Below, piece after piece: positions 14,409 to 22,383 of a DNA stretch of 48,437 nucleotides. The position numbers and the translations under genes were made by a program. Origin of the DNA: SAR202 cluster bacterium (GTDB lineage: Bacteria > Chloroflexota > Dehalococcoidia > Lucifugimonadales > VGZY01); assembly GCA_016872355.1 (NCBI GenBank), contig VGZY01000014.1, forward strand, positions 1-48,437, written 5' to 3'. The notes under the pieces were generated by a model. That model had not been told where the DNA came from and ran no database searches. It saw only the letters and a list, made by a program, of their open reading frames with translations. Numbering within the stretch: the stretch's first letter is position 1; the number at the start of each line of letters is the position of its first letter.

Positions 14409-15371
14409 ATGAAATTTGAAGCTCCGCTGAAGCTTGGCCTTTCACAAGAGCTGATCAACTTCTGGCAGAAGATGTTCCCCGGCTCACAGGATGTCACCAT
14501 CGAAGCGCTCCTGGGAGACGAGCTGGACTACAACCGGGGCGTCTTCTACATTGCGCGCAAGGGGAACAAGCTGGCAGGCACCTGCCACGTCACAGTGCCC
14601 CTGAACATCCCTTACCTGGGCGGATTCGGCGAGGTGGCCACTGAGCTGGAGTTCCGCAGGGAGGGCATAGCCACAGAGCTTTCCAGGCAGGCGCTCGAAG
14701 AGTTCAAGGCCCTGGGCGGTCAGGCAATGTTTCTCGGCACCAGTGAGCCCGGCCCGGCGCGGATGTACCGCCGTCTTGGGTGGCACCGCCTCGCAGGCAG
14801 CAACGTCATGGCGAATATCACCACAGGCGCATCGCCTGAGGAGTACATGGTGGACTACTTCCGCCGCACCGGCAAGTTCACCGTGCAGGCCGGCGGCCCG
14901 CCGCACCGCGTGCCGATGATCCCCCTTATCCTTACTCCTCATAACGTTCAGGTGCTGGATTCCAACGTGCCGCTGTACTCCACGCCGTACAACCTGCAAC
15001 GGTCCTGCATGGGCCTGTACCCGCGCTACAATGCGGTCACGAAGAACGGCTTCGGCGCCTGGTTCGCCGCAGTCACAGAAGACCACCGGATCGTTGGGCT
15101 GTCCAGTGTCCGGACCGACAAGCCCAACTCGTGCCGCGTGGACGGCTTCACTCATTACCGCTTCGCTGAAGCGTGGAAGCCGCTGATAGACGCCGCGCTG
15201 GCCTGGGGCAAGGAGAACGGCGCCACGACGGGCTACGCCGTGCTGTCGGTGGAGGACGAACAGAAGCACCAGATGTACCAGTCAGAGGGATTCGCCCGCT
15301 GGGAGCCTGGGGAAGACCTTGAGTTCGACAACCGCAAGGTGGAATCGATAAAGATGGGGAAGACCATATGA
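14409..15371 (+). CDS. GNAT family N-acetyltransferase, probably two GNAT modules
   Basis: The 320 residues contain an N-terminal GNAT domain: VFYIARKGNKLAGTCHV as the central strands, then LEFRREGIATELSRQAL, which carries the acetyl-CoA pyrophosphate-binding loop, and MYRRLGWHRL near residue 125. The C-terminal half (GAWFAAVTEDHRIVGLSSV and YAVLSVEDEQKHQMYQSEGF) looks like a second, more divergent GNAT module. The substrate is unknown. Its TGA stop overlaps the ATG of the next reading frame (ATGA at 15368-15371), so it is translationally coupled to the GH-like gene and probably belongs to that unit. Confidence 0.82.
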   Translation: MKFEAPLKLGLSQELINFWQKMFPGSQDVTIEALLGDELDYNRGVFYIARKGNKLAGTCHVTVPLNIPYLGGFGEVATELEFRREGIATELSRQALEEFKALGGQAMFLGTSEPGPARMYRRLGWHRLAGSNVMANITTGASPEEYMVDYFRRTGKFTVQAGGPPHRVPMIPLILTPHNVQVLDSNVPLYSTPYNLQRSCMGLYPRYNAVTKNGFGAWFAAVTEDHRIVGLSSVRTDKPNSCRVDGFTHYRFAEAWKPLIDAALAWGKENGATTGYAVLSVEDEQKHQMYQSEGFARWEPGEDLEFDNRKVESIKMGKTI

Positions 15372-15412
15372 GACAGCGCCGCACTATCTACTTCAACGAC
15401 GCGCGCCACTAA
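15368..15412 (+). other. Short coupled reading frame ending in TAA, in frame with the GH-like gene
   Basis: From the ATG overlapping the GNAT stop, 14 codons (MRQRRTIYFNDARH) lead to TAA at 15410-15412. The frame then continues open (YLFNFDPP) into the ATG at 15437. The paralogue at 16858 begins MRQRRNIYFDDARHFYL and stops with TAG three codons later. Either each full-length gene has suffered a nonsense change, or this is a leader peptide with reinitiation. The homology of the codons between stop and ATG favours an interrupted gene. Confidence 0.65.
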
Positions 15413-15436
15413 TACCTTTTCAACTTCGACCCCCCG

Positions 15437-16831
15437 ATGAAAATGGAGGACGCCTGGCGGCCGGTGGACGAGGTGGTGGGCACGGCCGTGGACACGCTAA
15501 TCTACGGCGTGTGCCGCGACGACGGGATGTACTATGACACGAAGGTCGGCAAGATGTTCTGCGAGACCAGCAGGCCCGTGAAGTCCGCCCACTACTGGCG
15601 GGCCTACAAGTGCATGAAGAGCCTCGTAGACAGGGGGCTGGACCCGCTATCTCTCCTCGCGAACCGCGCGCACTCAAAGGGGATGGAGTTCTTAGCCAGC
15701 CTTCGCATGGCGAGCACCGAGGCCATCGACCCTCCGGGCGCAACGTTCCCGGCCAGCGGCGCAGGCCTCAGCGACGCCGGTTTCCGCGAGCAGCAGATGA
15801 AGGTCATAAGAGAGATGGCGAGCTACGACGTCGAGGGGGTGGAGCTGGACTTCGCCGCGTACCCCTCCGGCATGCAGCCCTTCCTCCCGCCGGGGCAGGA
15901 AAGCAAGTATGTGGATGTGCTGACGGAGCAAGTGCGCCAGGCCTCCCGGGCCGTCCGGGAGCGCAATGCCCGCCCGGGCCTTGTGGGCGCGCGCGTCTAT
16001 GTGACGGAGGAGATGAACCTCAGACACGGCATGGACGTGCGTGCGTGGCTCAAGGAAGGGCTTCTGGACTACGTTGTCCCGATGCTCTACATCTACGCCG
16101 ACTTCGATATCAACATGCCGATCGACTGGATCATCGGACCTGCGCACGAGGCGGATGTGTCCGTCTACGGCTTCATGCAGCACTATGCGCGATCAACGTT
16201 CAGCGGCGCGCCGATCAACGTGTACCCGACCACCGAAATGGCGCGGGCGGTCATAGCCAACCACTGGGACCGCGGCGTGGACGGGATCTACACCCACGCG
16301 CTCCACTGGCCGTTCGGCAGCTTGGAGTGTAGCATCCTGACGGAAATGGGAGACCCGGAAATCGTCAGGGAGGCGGACAAACGTTACTTCCTCAACAAGC
16401 GCACGGAAAAGGGCGCCGAGATGGGCTATCCCGCCCCGCTGCCGGTCACCCTTTCATCGGCCGCCCTGGGAACGCCGCACGAGATCCGGTTCCGGATCGC
16501 GGACGATGTCGAGGGCAACTCAAAACAGGTGAGGCTGGTCAAACTGAAGGTCCTGGTCACCAACTTGCTCGCGGCGGACACGATAAGATTCAAGCTCAGC
16601 GGGAAGCCGCTGGACGATGAGCACGTAACGAGTTACCACGGCGGTGGAGTATCGCTCCGCGACTTCCGCAGCACTATCCAGGAGTTCAATCTCGGGAGTG
16701 TCCGCCCGAAGAAGGGCGACAACGTCCTCACCGTCTCGCTCGACAGCCGCCCGGAAGACATGGCCGGCGATGCGACCGTGGAGGAGGTAGAGGTAATCAT
16801 CGAGTACACGCCATTCCCTTCGGGAATCTAG
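15437..16831 (+). CDS. Glycoside-hydrolase-like TIM-barrel protein, first of two tandem copies
   Basis: The open part gives 464 residues; with the upstream in-frame piece from 15368 the ancestral product was about 487. The middle resembles GH10-like/GHL10 barrels: VEGVELDFAAYPSG with an acidic pair at the end of a strand, EEMNLRHGMDVRAWLKEG, and LDYVVPMLYIYADFD. A separate beta-rich domain occupies the last 130 or so residues (EIRFRIADDVEGNSK onward). No signal peptide is seen, so it probably acts in the cytoplasm. Substrate and catalytic residues are not certain. It follows the GNAT gene, is followed 26 bp later by its paralogue, and faces three MFS genes. The TAA at codon 15 of the long form is discussed as a finding. 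Confidence 0.72.
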   Translation: MKMEDAWRPVDEVVGTAVDTLIYGVCRDDGMYYDTKVGKMFCETSRPVKSAHYWRAYKCMKSLVDRGLDPLSLLANRAHSKGMEFLASLRMASTEAIDPPGATFPASGAGLSDAGFREQQMKVIREMASYDVEGVELDFAAYPSGMQPFLPPGQESKYVDVLTEQVRQASRAVRERNARPGLVGARVYVTEEMNLRHGMDVRAWLKEGLLDYVVPMLYIYADFDINMPIDWIIGPAHEADVSVYGFMQHYARSTFSGAPINVYPTTEMARAVIANHWDRGVDGIYTHALHWPFGSLECSILTEMGDPEIVREADKRYFLNKRTEKGAEMGYPAPLPVTLSSAALGTPHEIRFRIADDVEGNSKQVRLVKLKVLVTNLLAADTIRFKLSGKPLDDEHVTSYHGGGVSLRDFRSTIQEFNLGSVRPKKGDNVLTVSLDSRPEDMAGDATVEEVEVIIEYTPFPSGI

Positions 16832-16857
16832 GACGGCATCTTGTATCCGGAGACACA

Positions 16858-18327
16858 ATGAGACAGCGCAGGAATATCTACTTCGACGACGCCCGCCACT
16901 TCTATCTGTAGAACTTTGAGCCGCCAATGCGCCTCAAGGACGCATGGGCGCCGGTGGACCAGCTTGCCGGCACGCCGATCAACACGTTCGTATACGGCGT
17001 GGCGAGGGACGACGGCCTCTTCTATCCCACGAAGGTGAGCATGCCCTTCGGCGACGATGTGAAGGAGTTCGGGAACTACGAGTGGCGGGCGCACAACGCC
17101 ATCAAGTCGCTGCAGGCTGACGGGCACGACCTGCCGCAGGTGCTGATCGACCGCGCGCACCACCATGGCATGGACTTCATCGCCAGCCTTCGGCTGGGCG
17201 GCTAGGGCGGAATGGACCCCGCCCTCAGCACCCGGGGCGGCGGGCCCGGCTGGGCAGACCAGCGCGTGCGCGACCATCTTTTCGGCATCGTGCGCGAGCT
17301 GCTGGTGGGCTACAACACCCAGGGAGTTGAGTTGGACTTTGCTGCGCCGCCGGGATGGTCCGCCTTCCACCTGCGCGCAGAAGACGTAACCCAGTACACT
17401 CCCGTCGTCACCGAGTGGGTCCGCAAGGCGACGGAGACGGCGCGGAACAGGGTTGGGCAGACCGCTCTGATCGGAGTCCGAGTCTATCCCACGGAAGAGA
17501 TCAACCTGGCGCACGGGGTAGATATCCGCACGTGGCTCAAGGAAGGTCTGGTAGACTATCTGTCCCCGCTCGTCTACGCACACAACCGCATCGACGCCGA
17601 CACTCCGGTGGAGTGGCTCGTGGAGCTCGCGCACAAGTACAACGCATCGGTCTACCCGATTCTTATGGCCTATTACACAAACGAGGCTCGCCAATACTAC
17701 ACGCGCGTCTTCGCCACGCCGGCAATGTACCACGCCGCCGCGGCGAGCTACTTTGACCGCGGTTGCGACGGAATGTACTCATGGTTCATGCGATGGCCGC
17801 TTGGCGACACCGAGCGCCGAACGCTCGCGGACATTGGTAATCCCGATATCCTGCGCGAGAGCACCAAGCACTACGTCGTTAACCGGAAGTCGGACTACAC
17901 GGACAAGCTGGGTTTCAAACGCCCGCTCCCTCTGGAGATCAACTGCGTGGATCCTGGCAAGAGGCACGCAATACCCTTCTACCTGGCCGACGACCCTGTT
18001 GAGAGCAAGGGACGTATCCATGAAATCCGCATCAGGATGCGGCTGCACAACATGGTCAGTGCGGACAGGATATCGCTGTTCCTTAACGGGCAGTCGCTGG
18101 CCGCCGAGCCCTGCGCGCACTACCGGGCTAGCAACATGTACCCGTACGACCGGTGGGCAGAGCTCACTTTGCACAGGGTGCAGCCGCGCAAGGGCCACAA
18201 CGTTCTGGAGATCTCCCACGACTTCCGCCCGGAACGATTGGGTTACGGCCTTGCGGTGGAGGACCTTGAAGTGCTGGTGAAGTACAACACGTTCAGGGAC
18301 GACTACGAGATGCCGAAAACGCACTAG
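16858..18327 (+). pseudogene. Glycoside-hydrolase-like TIM-barrel gene, second copy, with two in-frame TAG codons
   Basis: The full frame spans 490 codons, almost exactly the length of the first copy, and aligns with it along its length (ELDFAAPPGW; EEINLAHGVDIRTWLKEG; VDYLSPLVYAHNRID; C-terminal beta domain). Two TAG codons break it: codon 18 (16909-16911) and codon 116 (17203-17205, within SLRLGG*GGMDP). The pieces 16927-17205 and 17212-18327 are in the same frame. Everything else is intact, so this is a very recent pseudogene, a sequence error, or a gene with stop read-through or restarts at the ATGs just after each stop. GGAG lies seven bases before the ATG at 16858. Its last 35 bases overlap the convergent MFS gene. 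Confidence 0.7.
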
Positions 18328-19621
18328 TCGTTCCCCTGAACATGGGCATCATGACCGCCGTTGCCGCGCCTCGCAGCACCAGGGCTATGACAAACATTGT
18401 CATGATCTGGTGCGTGAAGATTGTGGGCACTCGAGGCGCCAGGTATGCGGCCAGTAATGCCCCGGCCAGGCTGCCGGTGGAGCCCATAACGCGGTAAAGG
18501 CTGACGGCGCGGGGCCGCTCCTCGTCGGAGGCATTTTCAAGGCAGAAGTTGTACAGGCAAAACCCCCACCCTGATGTTGTCAGGCCCGTAAACGCGTAGA
18601 CAGCACCGATCCACCAGGGGCTGGGATGGAGCATGATCAAGACGGGGAAGGCAGAGAGGACTGTGGCGCAGATGGCCATGACCTTCCAGTTGCCGTAGCG
18701 GTCTGCGAATCGGCCCCAGAACGGCATGGTGACGATTGCCGCGATGCTGGACGCAATGCCGAACGTGATATACCTACTCACGGATAGGCCGAGGTCGTTC
18801 AGGAGATACACGCCAAAGAACGGCGCCGCGAAGTACCCGCCGATATACGCCACGCACATGTATATGTAGAACATCCCCAATCGCGTGCGCGGCGTGACCA
18901 GGCTGAGTAGCTTCCACGGCGGTGGGTTGACCGCTACCTTCAAGTCCGGCCGAGGGTCCTCTACCGTCATGAACATCACTGCGGAGATTATCCGGGCCGC
19001 GGTGCCCAGCGCGAACAACGCGACAAATACTCCTGCGGCCATTCCTCCCGCACCGTCGCCCTCGAATCGACCTCCCTGGAAGAGCCCCGGGCCGTACGCC
19101 CCTGTGATCCCGATTACCACTGAAATGGCCGTTGTCATAGCTCCCCGCACTCCCATATAGCGCCCACGACGGTGCTGCGGGACGAGGTCTGACATCCAGC
19201 TCATCCATGCCGCCTCGGTGGCCAGCAGCGCCGTCATGGCAAGGCCGGTGAGGATGATGGACGCCCATACCTGCGAGCCGTTAGGCATGGCGGGTACAAA
19301 GCAGAGCATAGCCCAGGGAATCGCGCTCAGGAGGTTTGTCGCAACGACCATTCGCTTGCGGCCGCCCATGGCCCGTGTGATGCCAGGCGTGAAATTTTGA
19401 GTAACGATAGTGAACAGCTCGGCGGAGGCGGCAAAGAGGCTCATCTGCGAAGCTGTGGCGCCCAGCTTGATCGTGAAGACGTTGAAGAAGTTCGCCTGTA
19501 CGCCAGACGTCGCCGCCCACGAGCCTCCCTCGGCAAGAAACACCCTCGCGCCGCGTTTTCGACCGGGGAGATCGTACTCGCTGGGGTAAGGCGCGGACGC
19601 CTCTGGAATGCGGGTCTTCAC
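18293..19621 (-). CDS. MFS transporter, third gene of a paralogous triplet
   Basis: This 442-residue major facilitator has about 12 hydrophobic segments and the loop 2-3 type basic motif RAMGGRKRMVVATN, plus FADRYGNWKV in the second half, where the motif is repeated. It begins with a charged, Pro-rich head (YDLPGRKRGARVFLAEGG) shared with the other two copies. The GTG start overlaps the TGA stop of the upstream paralogue (GTGA). The cargo is unknown; its position facing the GH-like genes suggests uptake of the same compound class or its products. The 3' end overlaps the convergent GH-like gene by 35 bp. Confidence 0.85.
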   Translation of the reverse strand: MKTRIPEASAPYPSEYDLPGRKRGARVFLAEGGSWAATSGVQANFFNVFTIKLGATASQMSLFAASAELFTIVTQNFTPGITRAMGGRKRMVVATNLLSAIPWAMLCFVPAMPNGSQVWASIILTGLAMTALLATEAAWMSWMSDLVPQHRRGRYMGVRGAMTTAISVVIGITGAYGPGLFQGGRFEGDGAGGMAAGVFVALFALGTAARIISAVMFMTVEDPRPDLKVAVNPPPWKLLSLVTPRTRLGMFYIYMCVAYIGGYFAAPFFGVYLLNDLGLSVSRYITFGIASSIAAIVTMPFWGRFADRYGNWKVMAICATVLSAFPVLIMLHPSPWWIGAVYAFTGLTTSGWGFCLYNFCLENASDEERPRAVSLYRVMGSTGSLAGALLAAYLAPRVPTIFTHQIMTMFVIALVLRGAATAVMMPMFRGTTSAFSASRSRP

Positions 19622-20943
19622 TGTCCCGGTGACTCCCCTGAGGACTGCCTCTCCAACTCCGGTCCAGGCGACGCCTTCCCAGGGCGGAAGCGCGGCACCA
19701 GCGCGATAGTGGCGGCGCTGCGAAGGACCGTGGAAAGTACAAACATGGTCATAATCTGGTAGGCGAAAATCTGAGGCATGTGCAGGGCTATCGTCGCCGC
19801 CACGAGTGCTCCAAGCATCGCCCCCACTGCCGGGATAACCCGGTAGAGCGCAACCGCGCTGGACCTCTCTTCATCGGTGGAATGCTCCAGAACGAAGTTG
19901 TATTGGGCCATGCCCCAGCCGCCTTCGGCGAGTCCCAGCACAACGTACATGGCAAAGATGTACCAGGTCTCCTGCACCAGTATGAACAGGGTAGGCCAGA
20001 GAGAGAAGAAGACGGCGCCGGTCACGAGTACGAAGTAGTTGCCCTTGCGGTCCGCCAGCTTACCCCACAGCGGCATCACCGTCATTTGTGCTATGCCGCT
20101 GATTACGCCGGCGGCAACGAACTGCGTGTAAGACAGGCCCAGGTCGTTCAGTATGTAGATGCTGAAGAACGGACCGGCGAACGGCATGGCGAAGCGCATC
20201 GCCATCAGATAGCGATTCATCCCGCTCAGGTTCGTCTTGGCCGTAAGGTGTCTCAACATCTTCCAGGGTGGAGGCGCCGGTGAGAGACGCAGGCCCGGCC
20301 TTGGGTCGCGTGCGATTGCGAAAATCGCCGCGGAGACGAACCTCGAGACCAGCGCAAGCGCGAAGGCAGCGATGAAACCCCACTTTGCCGCGTCGCCAAG
20401 CCGGTCGAGCGCGAGCGCTCCCGTAAGCCCGAGGACGATATAGATGCCCATCTGGTAAGCACCGCGCCTGGCCATCCACCGACCGCGCATGTGGCGCGGG
20501 ACCAGGTCGGACATCCAGCTTCCCCACGCGGGGTCGCTGAGAAGGGCAAGCGGGAAGGCCAGGCCTAGCAGGGCAATGGCCGCCCACACTCGCGCGCCCG
20601 CGGGCAGGAATGGGACCACCATCAGCGCCGCGAACGGAATCGCGCCGAAGACGGTGGCGATTACCGTCATCCGTTTCCGTCCGCCCAGTATCCCTACAAG
20701 CCTGGGTGCGACAAGCTGGGTGAGCATGGAGAAAAGCTCTATCGTCGCCGCCAGAAACCCCATCTGCGAGCTGGATGCGCCCATCTTGAGCGCAAAGGCG
20801 TTGCAGAAGTTGTTATACACGCCGGTGGGTATCGAGCTCGGCACGACCTCGGCCATGAACAGCTTCGCGTCGCGCTCGCGGTCAGCCGGTCCAGTCTCGG
20901 CCGGAGCATCGGGCGCCTTGGCCGGAAAGCGTTTCGTTATCAT
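19618..20943 (-). CDS. MFS transporter, second gene of a paralogous triplet
   Basis: The 441 residues have the same layout as its neighbours: a charged head (PADRERDAKLFMAEV), about 12 membrane segments, the basic motif VGILGGRKRMTVIAT after the second segment, MSDLVPRHMRGRWMARRGAY in the first half, and KLADRKGNYFVLVTG in the second. ATG overlaps the upstream stop (ATGA), and the stop overlaps the next start (GTGA). The three genes must therefore be translated from one message, and they clearly arose by duplication. Substrate unknown. Confidence 0.85.
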   Translation of the reverse strand: MITKRFPAKAPDAPAETGPADRERDAKLFMAEVVPSSIPTGVYNNFCNAFALKMGASSSQMGFLAATIELFSMLTQLVAPRLVGILGGRKRMTVIATVFGAIPFAALMVVPFLPAGARVWAAIALLGLAFPLALLSDPAWGSWMSDLVPRHMRGRWMARRGAYQMGIYIVLGLTGALALDRLGDAAKWGFIAAFALALVSRFVSAAIFAIARDPRPGLRLSPAPPPWKMLRHLTAKTNLSGMNRYLMAMRFAMPFAGPFFSIYILNDLGLSYTQFVAAGVISGIAQMTVMPLWGKLADRKGNYFVLVTGAVFFSLWPTLFILVQETWYIFAMYVVLGLAEGGWGMAQYNFVLEHSTDEERSSAVALYRVIPAVGAMLGALVAATIALHMPQIFAYQIMTMFVLSTVLRSAATIALVPRFRPGKASPGPELERQSSGESPGQ

Positions 20944-22250
20944 GCAGCGAGCGCCTTCCCCCGGAACCGCGGGAGCAGGGCCAACGTGGCCGCGCCGCGC
21001 AGGGCAGAGGATATGATGAACATCGTCATTATCTGGTAGGTGAGGAGCTCAGGAACCCGCGGCGCGAGAATTGCGGCCACGAGTGAGCCCGTGACGGAGC
21101 CCACGGACACAACGATACGGTAGAAGGCGACTGAGCGGGGACGGTCCTCATCCGAGCAGTTCTCCAGGACGAAATTGTACTGGCACAGCGCCCAGCCTGC
21201 GCTTGCTAGACCCATCGCAATGTTGGCCACGAACACATACCAGATCGCGGGTACGGCGATGAAGACGATCGGCCACAGGGAAAAAGTCACACCACAGACC
21301 GCCAGCACAAAGTAGTTGCCCTTCCGGTCGGCCACGCGGCCCCAGAACTGCATCGCGACCATCTGGGCTAAGCTGTTGACAACGCCGGCGGCAACGTACG
21401 CGGTGTACGACATGCCAAGATCGTTCAGCATGTATATGCCGAAGAAAGGCGCCGCGAAGAATATCGCGAAGTGTATCGCCAGCATGTAGGCGTAGAAACG
21501 GCCCAGCCGTGGATTGCCTTTCACCATCGTCGCGAGCTTCCACGGCGGCGGCATCGGCGTCATCTTCAGGTCCGGCCGCGGGTCGGCAACTCTTGAGAAG
21601 ATAAATGCCGAAGCAACCCTGGCGACAAGGGCGGCGGCGAACGCGACAGCAAACCCCCATTTCACCGCTTCGCCCAGGCCGTCGAGGGTAAATGCGCCAA
21701 CAAGGCCGATGCCGACGTAGACCACCAGGGCTATCGTCCCTCGTCGGCCCATCCACCTGCCCCGGCGGCCGGGAGGCACAAGGTCCGACACCCAGCTCCC
21801 CCACGGCGCGTCGCCGATCAGGGCGACGGTGAGGGTAAGGCTGATCATAATCAGGGCGGCCCACACCCGGATGCCATCCGGAAGGAAAGGGACGGCTATA
21901 AGGCCGGCCCACGGGACTGCGGCCGCGAGAGTGGAGACGACTACCATGCGTTTCCTACCGCCGGTCGCCCGCGTCAGCCACGGGGCCACGAGCTGCGAGG
22001 CGATTGAGAACGCCTCGCTCATCGCGGCAAGGAGCGCCATATGGGAGCTTGTGGCGCCCATCTTGATAATGAACGGGTGGGTAAACTGCCCATGCACGGA
22101 TACGGGTGTGGAGCCCACGGCCGATTCGACAAGAAAGGCTCGTGCGCCTTCTTTGCGAGCAGGATGGTCGTAATCGGTGGCAGAAGGGGGAGCCGTTGGT
22201 TTAAGGGCCGGGGACGTGCCGGCGTTGTCTGCCGGCGTTTGCGTGGTCAT
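20940..22250 (-). CDS. MFS transporter, first gene of a paralogous triplet
   Basis: About 436 residues from the ATG at 22250 (a longer frame starts at 22313, but its extra 21 residues are unlike the paralogues). The protein shows DYDHPARKEGARAFLVES as the shared head, TRATGGRKRMVVVST after helix 2, WVSDLVPPGRRGRWMGRRGT, and RVADRKGNYFVLAVCG in the second half. It is divergently arranged from the isomerase/dehydrogenase pair, with about 130 bp between them for both promoters, which would suit shared control. No clear Shine-Dalgarno is seen at the start. Cargo is unknown. Confidence 0.83.
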   Translation of the reverse strand: MTTQTPADNAGTSPALKPTAPPSATDYDHPARKEGARAFLVESAVGSTPVSVHGQFTHPFIIKMGATSSHMALLAAMSEAFSIASQLVAPWLTRATGGRKRMVVVSTLAAAVPWAGLIAVPFLPDGIRVWAALIMISLTLTVALIGDAPWGSWVSDLVPPGRRGRWMGRRGTIALVVYVGIGLVGAFTLDGLGEAVKWGFAVAFAAALVARVASAFIFSRVADPRPDLKMTPMPPPWKLATMVKGNPRLGRFYAYMLAIHFAIFFAAPFFGIYMLNDLGMSYTAYVAAGVVNSLAQMVAMQFWGRVADRKGNYFVLAVCGVTFSLWPIVFIAVPAIWYVFVANIAMGLASAGWALCQYNFVLENCSDEDRPRSVAFYRIVVSVGSVTGSLVAAILAPRVPELLTYQIMTMFIISSALRGAATLALLPRFRGKALAA

Positions 22251-22383
22251 CTTGGGAGTGTATTCCTGAAATCGGACGCATGAAATGCCAGCCCAGAGTA
22301 CAGGCGGGGCCATGCCGTGTCAACGCTCGCCGAAAGTGGTAAATTGAGCGCGTCTCCATACCAGCAAGGGAAGGATTTTGCAT

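Follow-up and report, generated by a model that had tools for sequence, protein, structure and literature searches.

Two tandem glycosidase-like genes of a SAR202 cluster bacterium (contig VGZY01000014.1) are interrupted by in-frame stop codons, and these breaks probably reflect the recent, lineage-specific decay of a redundant and expanded GH156-related family. Decay is the best supported reading because lesions of several kinds interrupt 6 of the 21 paralogues, and do so in this genome alone, and because other dispensable genes are broken as well. The earlier note on the window, i.e. the whole stretch of 48,437 nucleotides analysed here, had listed decay, errors, read-through and reinitiation without choosing among them; decay is now favoured and the other three remain as rivals only.

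The interrupted copies and their relationship to GH156

The features of the window to which the text refers are, with coordinates and strand:

14409-15371, +, GNAT acetyltransferase gene upstream of copy 1, its TGA overlapping the copy 1 ATG
15368-16831, +, copy 1, GH156-related (beta/alpha)8 glycosidase-like gene with its frame broken by a TAA at codon 15
15368-15439, +, N-terminal block of copy 1, running to PPM and containing strand beta-1 and the invariant Asp-Ala-Arg motif
15410-15412, +, in-frame TAA of copy 1; homologues have Tyr (Phe or Thr in a few)
15437-15439, +, ATG of copy 1 for the conserved PPM Met, the nominal restart codon, with no Shine-Dalgarno sequence ahead
16858-18327, +, copy 2, tandem paralogue of copy 1 with two TAG interruptions
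16909-16911, +, first in-frame TAG of copy 2 (codon 18), where homologues carry Phe, Tyr or Trp
16927-16929, +, ATG of the conserved PPM motif in copy 2, with only 92 codons open until the next TAG
17203-17205, +, second in-frame TAG of copy 2, at codon 116; homologues have Tyr or Phe
17212-17214, +, ATG two codons past the second TAG of copy 2, beginning an open remainder of 371 aa

All three stops, and the ATGs near them at 15437, 16927 and 17212, are present in the sequence as first reported, and the alignment with homologues that the earlier note had proposed places the sense residues given above at each of the stops. Copy 1 reads MRQRRTIYFNDARH-TAA(15410)-YLFNFDPPM(15437) in the N-terminal block and copy 2 reads MRQRRNIYFDDARHFYL-TAG(16909)-NFEPPM(16927), followed later by LRLGG-TAG(17203)-GG-M(17212). 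The intact block in other genomes of the same order is IYFNDARHYYLFVFEPPM. The protein sequences of the two copies hardly differ ahead of the first stop (MRQRR[TN]IYF[ND]DARH), with silent differences in some of the codons. The same residue pattern is seen in relatives from Acidobacteriota, Poribacteria, Gemmatimonadota, Chloroflexota and other groups, and the closest homologues are 45-58% identical. Relative to intact homologues the frames of both copies are interrupted, as is characteristic of pseudogenes. The ATG at 15368 shares bases with the TGA of the GNAT gene (ATGA), an overlap which argues for 15368 as the true start of copy 1, and GGAG precedes the start of copy 2 at 16858. Three major-facilitator-superfamily transporter genes in tandem (window 18296-22313, -) adjoin both interrupted copies.

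An intact paralogue from the same genome (L004) was modelled with a pLDDT of 90.9. By far the best match of the model was the inverting GH156 exosialidase (Foldseek E 7e-32); superposition on 6s00_A gave a Z of 34 and an rmsd of 2.8 A over 442 residues, so that the fold is that of GH156, and the GH156 profile matched with an E of 7e-20. Strand beta-1 comprises residues 7-12 of the model with the invariant Asp at the strand end, and in the profile alignment this Asp of the NDARH motif falls on the catalytic base Asp14 of GH156. Asp14 acts as the general base in GH156, and every Asp14 mutant is inactive (PMC6811678). Arg129 of GH156 is also kept in the family. The acid catalyst His134 and the carboxylate-binding Arg202 are not kept; the residues aligned with them in the subfamily are a Gly next to a Tyr and the Ala in ELDFAA, respectively. 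The TAG at 17203 in copy 2 adjoins the position aligned with His134. Because these two positions are not conserved, the genes are, as judged from the alignment, GH156-related rather than GH156, and their substrate is probably not sialic acid.

Broken genes in the family and across the genome

The genome (3.07 Mb, 133 contigs) carries 21 separate loci of the family, six of which are broken. The broken paralogues outside the window are:

C6:25559-27028, third close paralogue, with a TGA at codon 18, the same codon as the first TAG of copy 2
C6 at 31.7 kb, paralogue with a TAG at a Glu/Asp position
C6 at 65.2 kb, paralogue with a TGA at a conserved Trp
C27, distant paralogue with a one-base frameshift right before PPM and a further TGA at Ser

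The lesions are of mixed type, comprising all three stop codons as well as a one-base frameshift. Two lesions each are found in copy 2 and in the C27 copy, one each in copy 1 and in the close C6 copy. At 108 conserved columns, the broken copies show 7, 15 and 15 changes and intact copies of the same genome 9 and 11, so that the breaks appear to be recent. Recent decay is likewise suggested by the remainder of each frame, which is open (apart from the second stop of copy 2) and has kept its conserved residues. Internal stops were absent from the roughly 75 family members read in the order's other genomes, a count that leaves out a match with one TAG that was not placed (G247:C12), and a hand calculation puts the probability that all six broken genes would lie in this one genome at about 6e-5. 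Neither the other genomes of the order nor the loci of other species share a stop with the window copies. Single breaks do occur in other phyla (L114, L118 and L120); the one in L120:1263-1370, a Gemmatimonadota member, is a TAA three codons ahead of the PPM ATG and thus in the same block as those of the window copies. In another locus of the family, L007 (C75:6428-7297), the N-terminal part is swapped in frame for unrelated pyruvyl-transferase-like sequence, a replacement which may represent a fusion, a recombination or a misassembly.

Breaks were also sought beyond the family, with a coding filter, an unfiltered genome-wide scan having returned mostly antisense artefacts. In 1.6 Mb of the genome, 29 raw in-frame stops were detected, about 18 of them convincing by eye, together with 10 frameshift-like breaks. 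In 0.8 Mb of the single-contig comparator G032 there were 4 raw stops, of which none was convincing, and frameshift-like breaks were absent. No stops were found in 75 matches to ABC and SDR domains. The family makes up about 5% of the codons under homology and accounts for some one third of the stops judged convincing, and the excess of breaks is due to both the genome and the family. Stops outside the family are spread all along their genes, unlike those clustered in the N-terminal block.

Several of these other genes are worth describing. The sole mutM/fpg (Fapy-DNA glycosylase) gene found has an in-frame TAG at a Glu codon (G000:C31, L260 stop 8503, -). Its loss would raise G:C to T:A mutations and could feed the decay; a G:C to T:A bias is not claimed, as a large share of such changes is expected from the codon paths alone. 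In a second copy of a UppS-like prenyltransferase gene, a TAG stands at a conserved Gln (L260:16483, +, C31), and a sugar isomerase-like TIM-barrel gene has two TAA codons, both at Tyr/Phe positions (L268:2988 and 3576, +, C39). In a gene resembling BNR-repeat sialidases by eye, a Tyr position is occupied by an in-frame TAA (L174:7014, -, C4). Two members of another many-copy family (ATRLAPPPxWALxQRxL) are apparently interrupted by stops as well (L088:13543, +, C2, and L270:6347, +, C45).

Breaks of this kind could also be base-call or consensus errors of the metagenome assembly, the genes being intact in the organism. The draft state of the genome, with its 133 contigs, the genome-wide excess of breaks over the single-contig comparator, the stop in the only mutM/fpg gene and the position of the C27 frameshift in a run of C are all consistent with such an origin. 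Errors would, however, fall randomly, whereas the breaks are several-fold enriched in the family and clustered in one block. Moreover, no broken gene was recognised as essential, the stop-carrying UppS copy being accompanied by an intact one (C2:66059-66709), and the observed rate would need an estimated 1 wrong base per 1000 or so. We therefore consider sequence error unlikely and retain decay as the preferred reading.

Clustering in the N-terminal block, reinitiation and read-through

Three of the four stops of the close subfamily lie inside one 4-codon window. With four stops placed randomly in five close copies and weighted by stop-prone codons, P is about 0.001-0.0025, a value which covers any 4-codon window but not the choice of the family, this 4-codon stretch having been noticed because of the cluster. 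The C27 frameshift fits the pattern and stands outside this calculation. Several of the breaks sit within a short run of codons immediately behind the residue presumed to be catalytic. The clustering may come in part from the run of aromatic codons in the block, Tyr and Trp codons each having two single-base steps to a stop, and early truncation is possibly the cheapest way of silencing a gene. Together, aromatic codons and early truncation do not fully explain the clustering. Three observations speak against decay: three or four breaks so close together are not expected if decay is random, the stops of the other broken genes are spread over the gene length, and the interrupted copies still have intact upstream starts and Shine-Dalgarno-like sequences. 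The repeated, independent breaks in the block, in four paralogues and in the Gemmatimonadota gene, might instead of loss reflect that a GH156-like protein in truncated, split or down-regulated form, produced via reinitiation or read-through, has been selected for, a reading that we hold to be doubtful.

One route to such a protein would be a leader peptide followed by termination and reinitiation at the PPM ATG, the product being either a split enzyme or a truncated protein under regulation. Only 5 to 8 codons indeed separate stop and ATG in the close copies, and only 2 at 17203, the C27 copy changes frame exactly at the PPM ATG, the Gemmatimonadota gene has its TAA close ahead of the same codon, and the upstream starts have been kept. 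Nonetheless, the PPM Met is conserved in most relatives, intact genes included, so that its presence behind the stops is incidental, and no clear Shine-Dalgarno sequence precedes it: purine-rich sequence of this type is absent before 15437, and only a weak GAG is found before 16927. A PPM-started product would be without strand beta-1 and the invariant Asp and would be expected to be inactive, and in copy 2 it would meet another stop after 92 codons. For these reasons the ATGs at 15437 and 16927, put forward previously as restart codons, appear mostly incidental. Nor are they the natural start of homologues, a possibility raised at the same time, since none was found to start at the downstream PPM ATG and nearly all reach the upstream start. 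Reinitiation is accordingly regarded as highly improbable.

Low-level read-through would be the second route, with the stops damping expression and allowing a little full-length enzyme to be made. At least seven of the genome's convincing stops stand in place of an aromatic residue that a near-cognate Tyr or Trp tRNA would restore, and the frame past the stop is well conserved. Against this, all three stop codons are used and their contexts differ, no homologue elsewhere in the order has the same stops, and copy 2 would need two events. No suppressor tRNA was present among the approximately 40 of 46 tRNAs read. The tRNA-Trp is ordinary, with a 5-bp anticodon stem; a 4-bp stem was considered and not found. 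A stimulating 3' RNA structure was not detected at the stops of either copy, the predicted folding being no better than that of shuffled sequences (z about 0.3 in both). An altered genetic code appears unlikely, since TAA, TAG and TGA also serve as normal gene terminators and the genome has two release-factor genes (PF00472). Read-through is hence quite improbable.

With decay as the favoured reading, the window copies would be recently inactivated members of a large, redundant glycosidase-like family in birth-and-death decay. Translation would start at 15368 and 16858 and end at the early stops, yielding peptides of 14 and 17 residues, and as a product of restart would contain neither strand beta-1 nor the Asp presumed to be catalytic, both loci would be functionally null. 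If this is correct, the genes illustrate birth-and-death turnover in a large and mostly unannotated GH156-related family, and they serve as a warning that gene callers start both copies too late and thereby give wrong N-termini. If the clustering is selected, one and the same site in an enzyme family would have been interrupted recurrently and convergently, and the genes would offer a direct case on which to test read-through or reinitiation among uncultured bacteria.

Comparison with known systems

In-frame stops under purifying selection have been reported to be common in bacteria (PMC7918605). Those stops, for which read-through is proposed, and the stops of the window copies both lie inside an otherwise conserved frame. 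In contrast to the stops analysed in that study, which were common to at least two genomes, the stops of the window copies occur in none of the other genomes examined. The GH156 exosialidase EnvSia156 (PDB 6rzd, 6s00 and 6s04; PMC6811678, PMC6254351) shares with the present family the (beta/alpha)8 barrel and the C-terminal domain over nearly the full length, but the identity is only about 19% and the window copies are broken. The family also matches the Pfam profile GHL10 (PF02638) weakly; copy 1 scores below the curated cut-off, which only one paralogue exceeds, and for the open part of copy 2 no GHL10 match was reported.

Pseudogenes occur in expanded bacterial gene families, where redundant paralogues carry mixed nonsense and frameshift lesions, some of them two. 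The family described here resembles such pseudogenes in its redundancy and in its mixed and double lesions, and differs from them by the clustering of its breaks in the N-terminal block.
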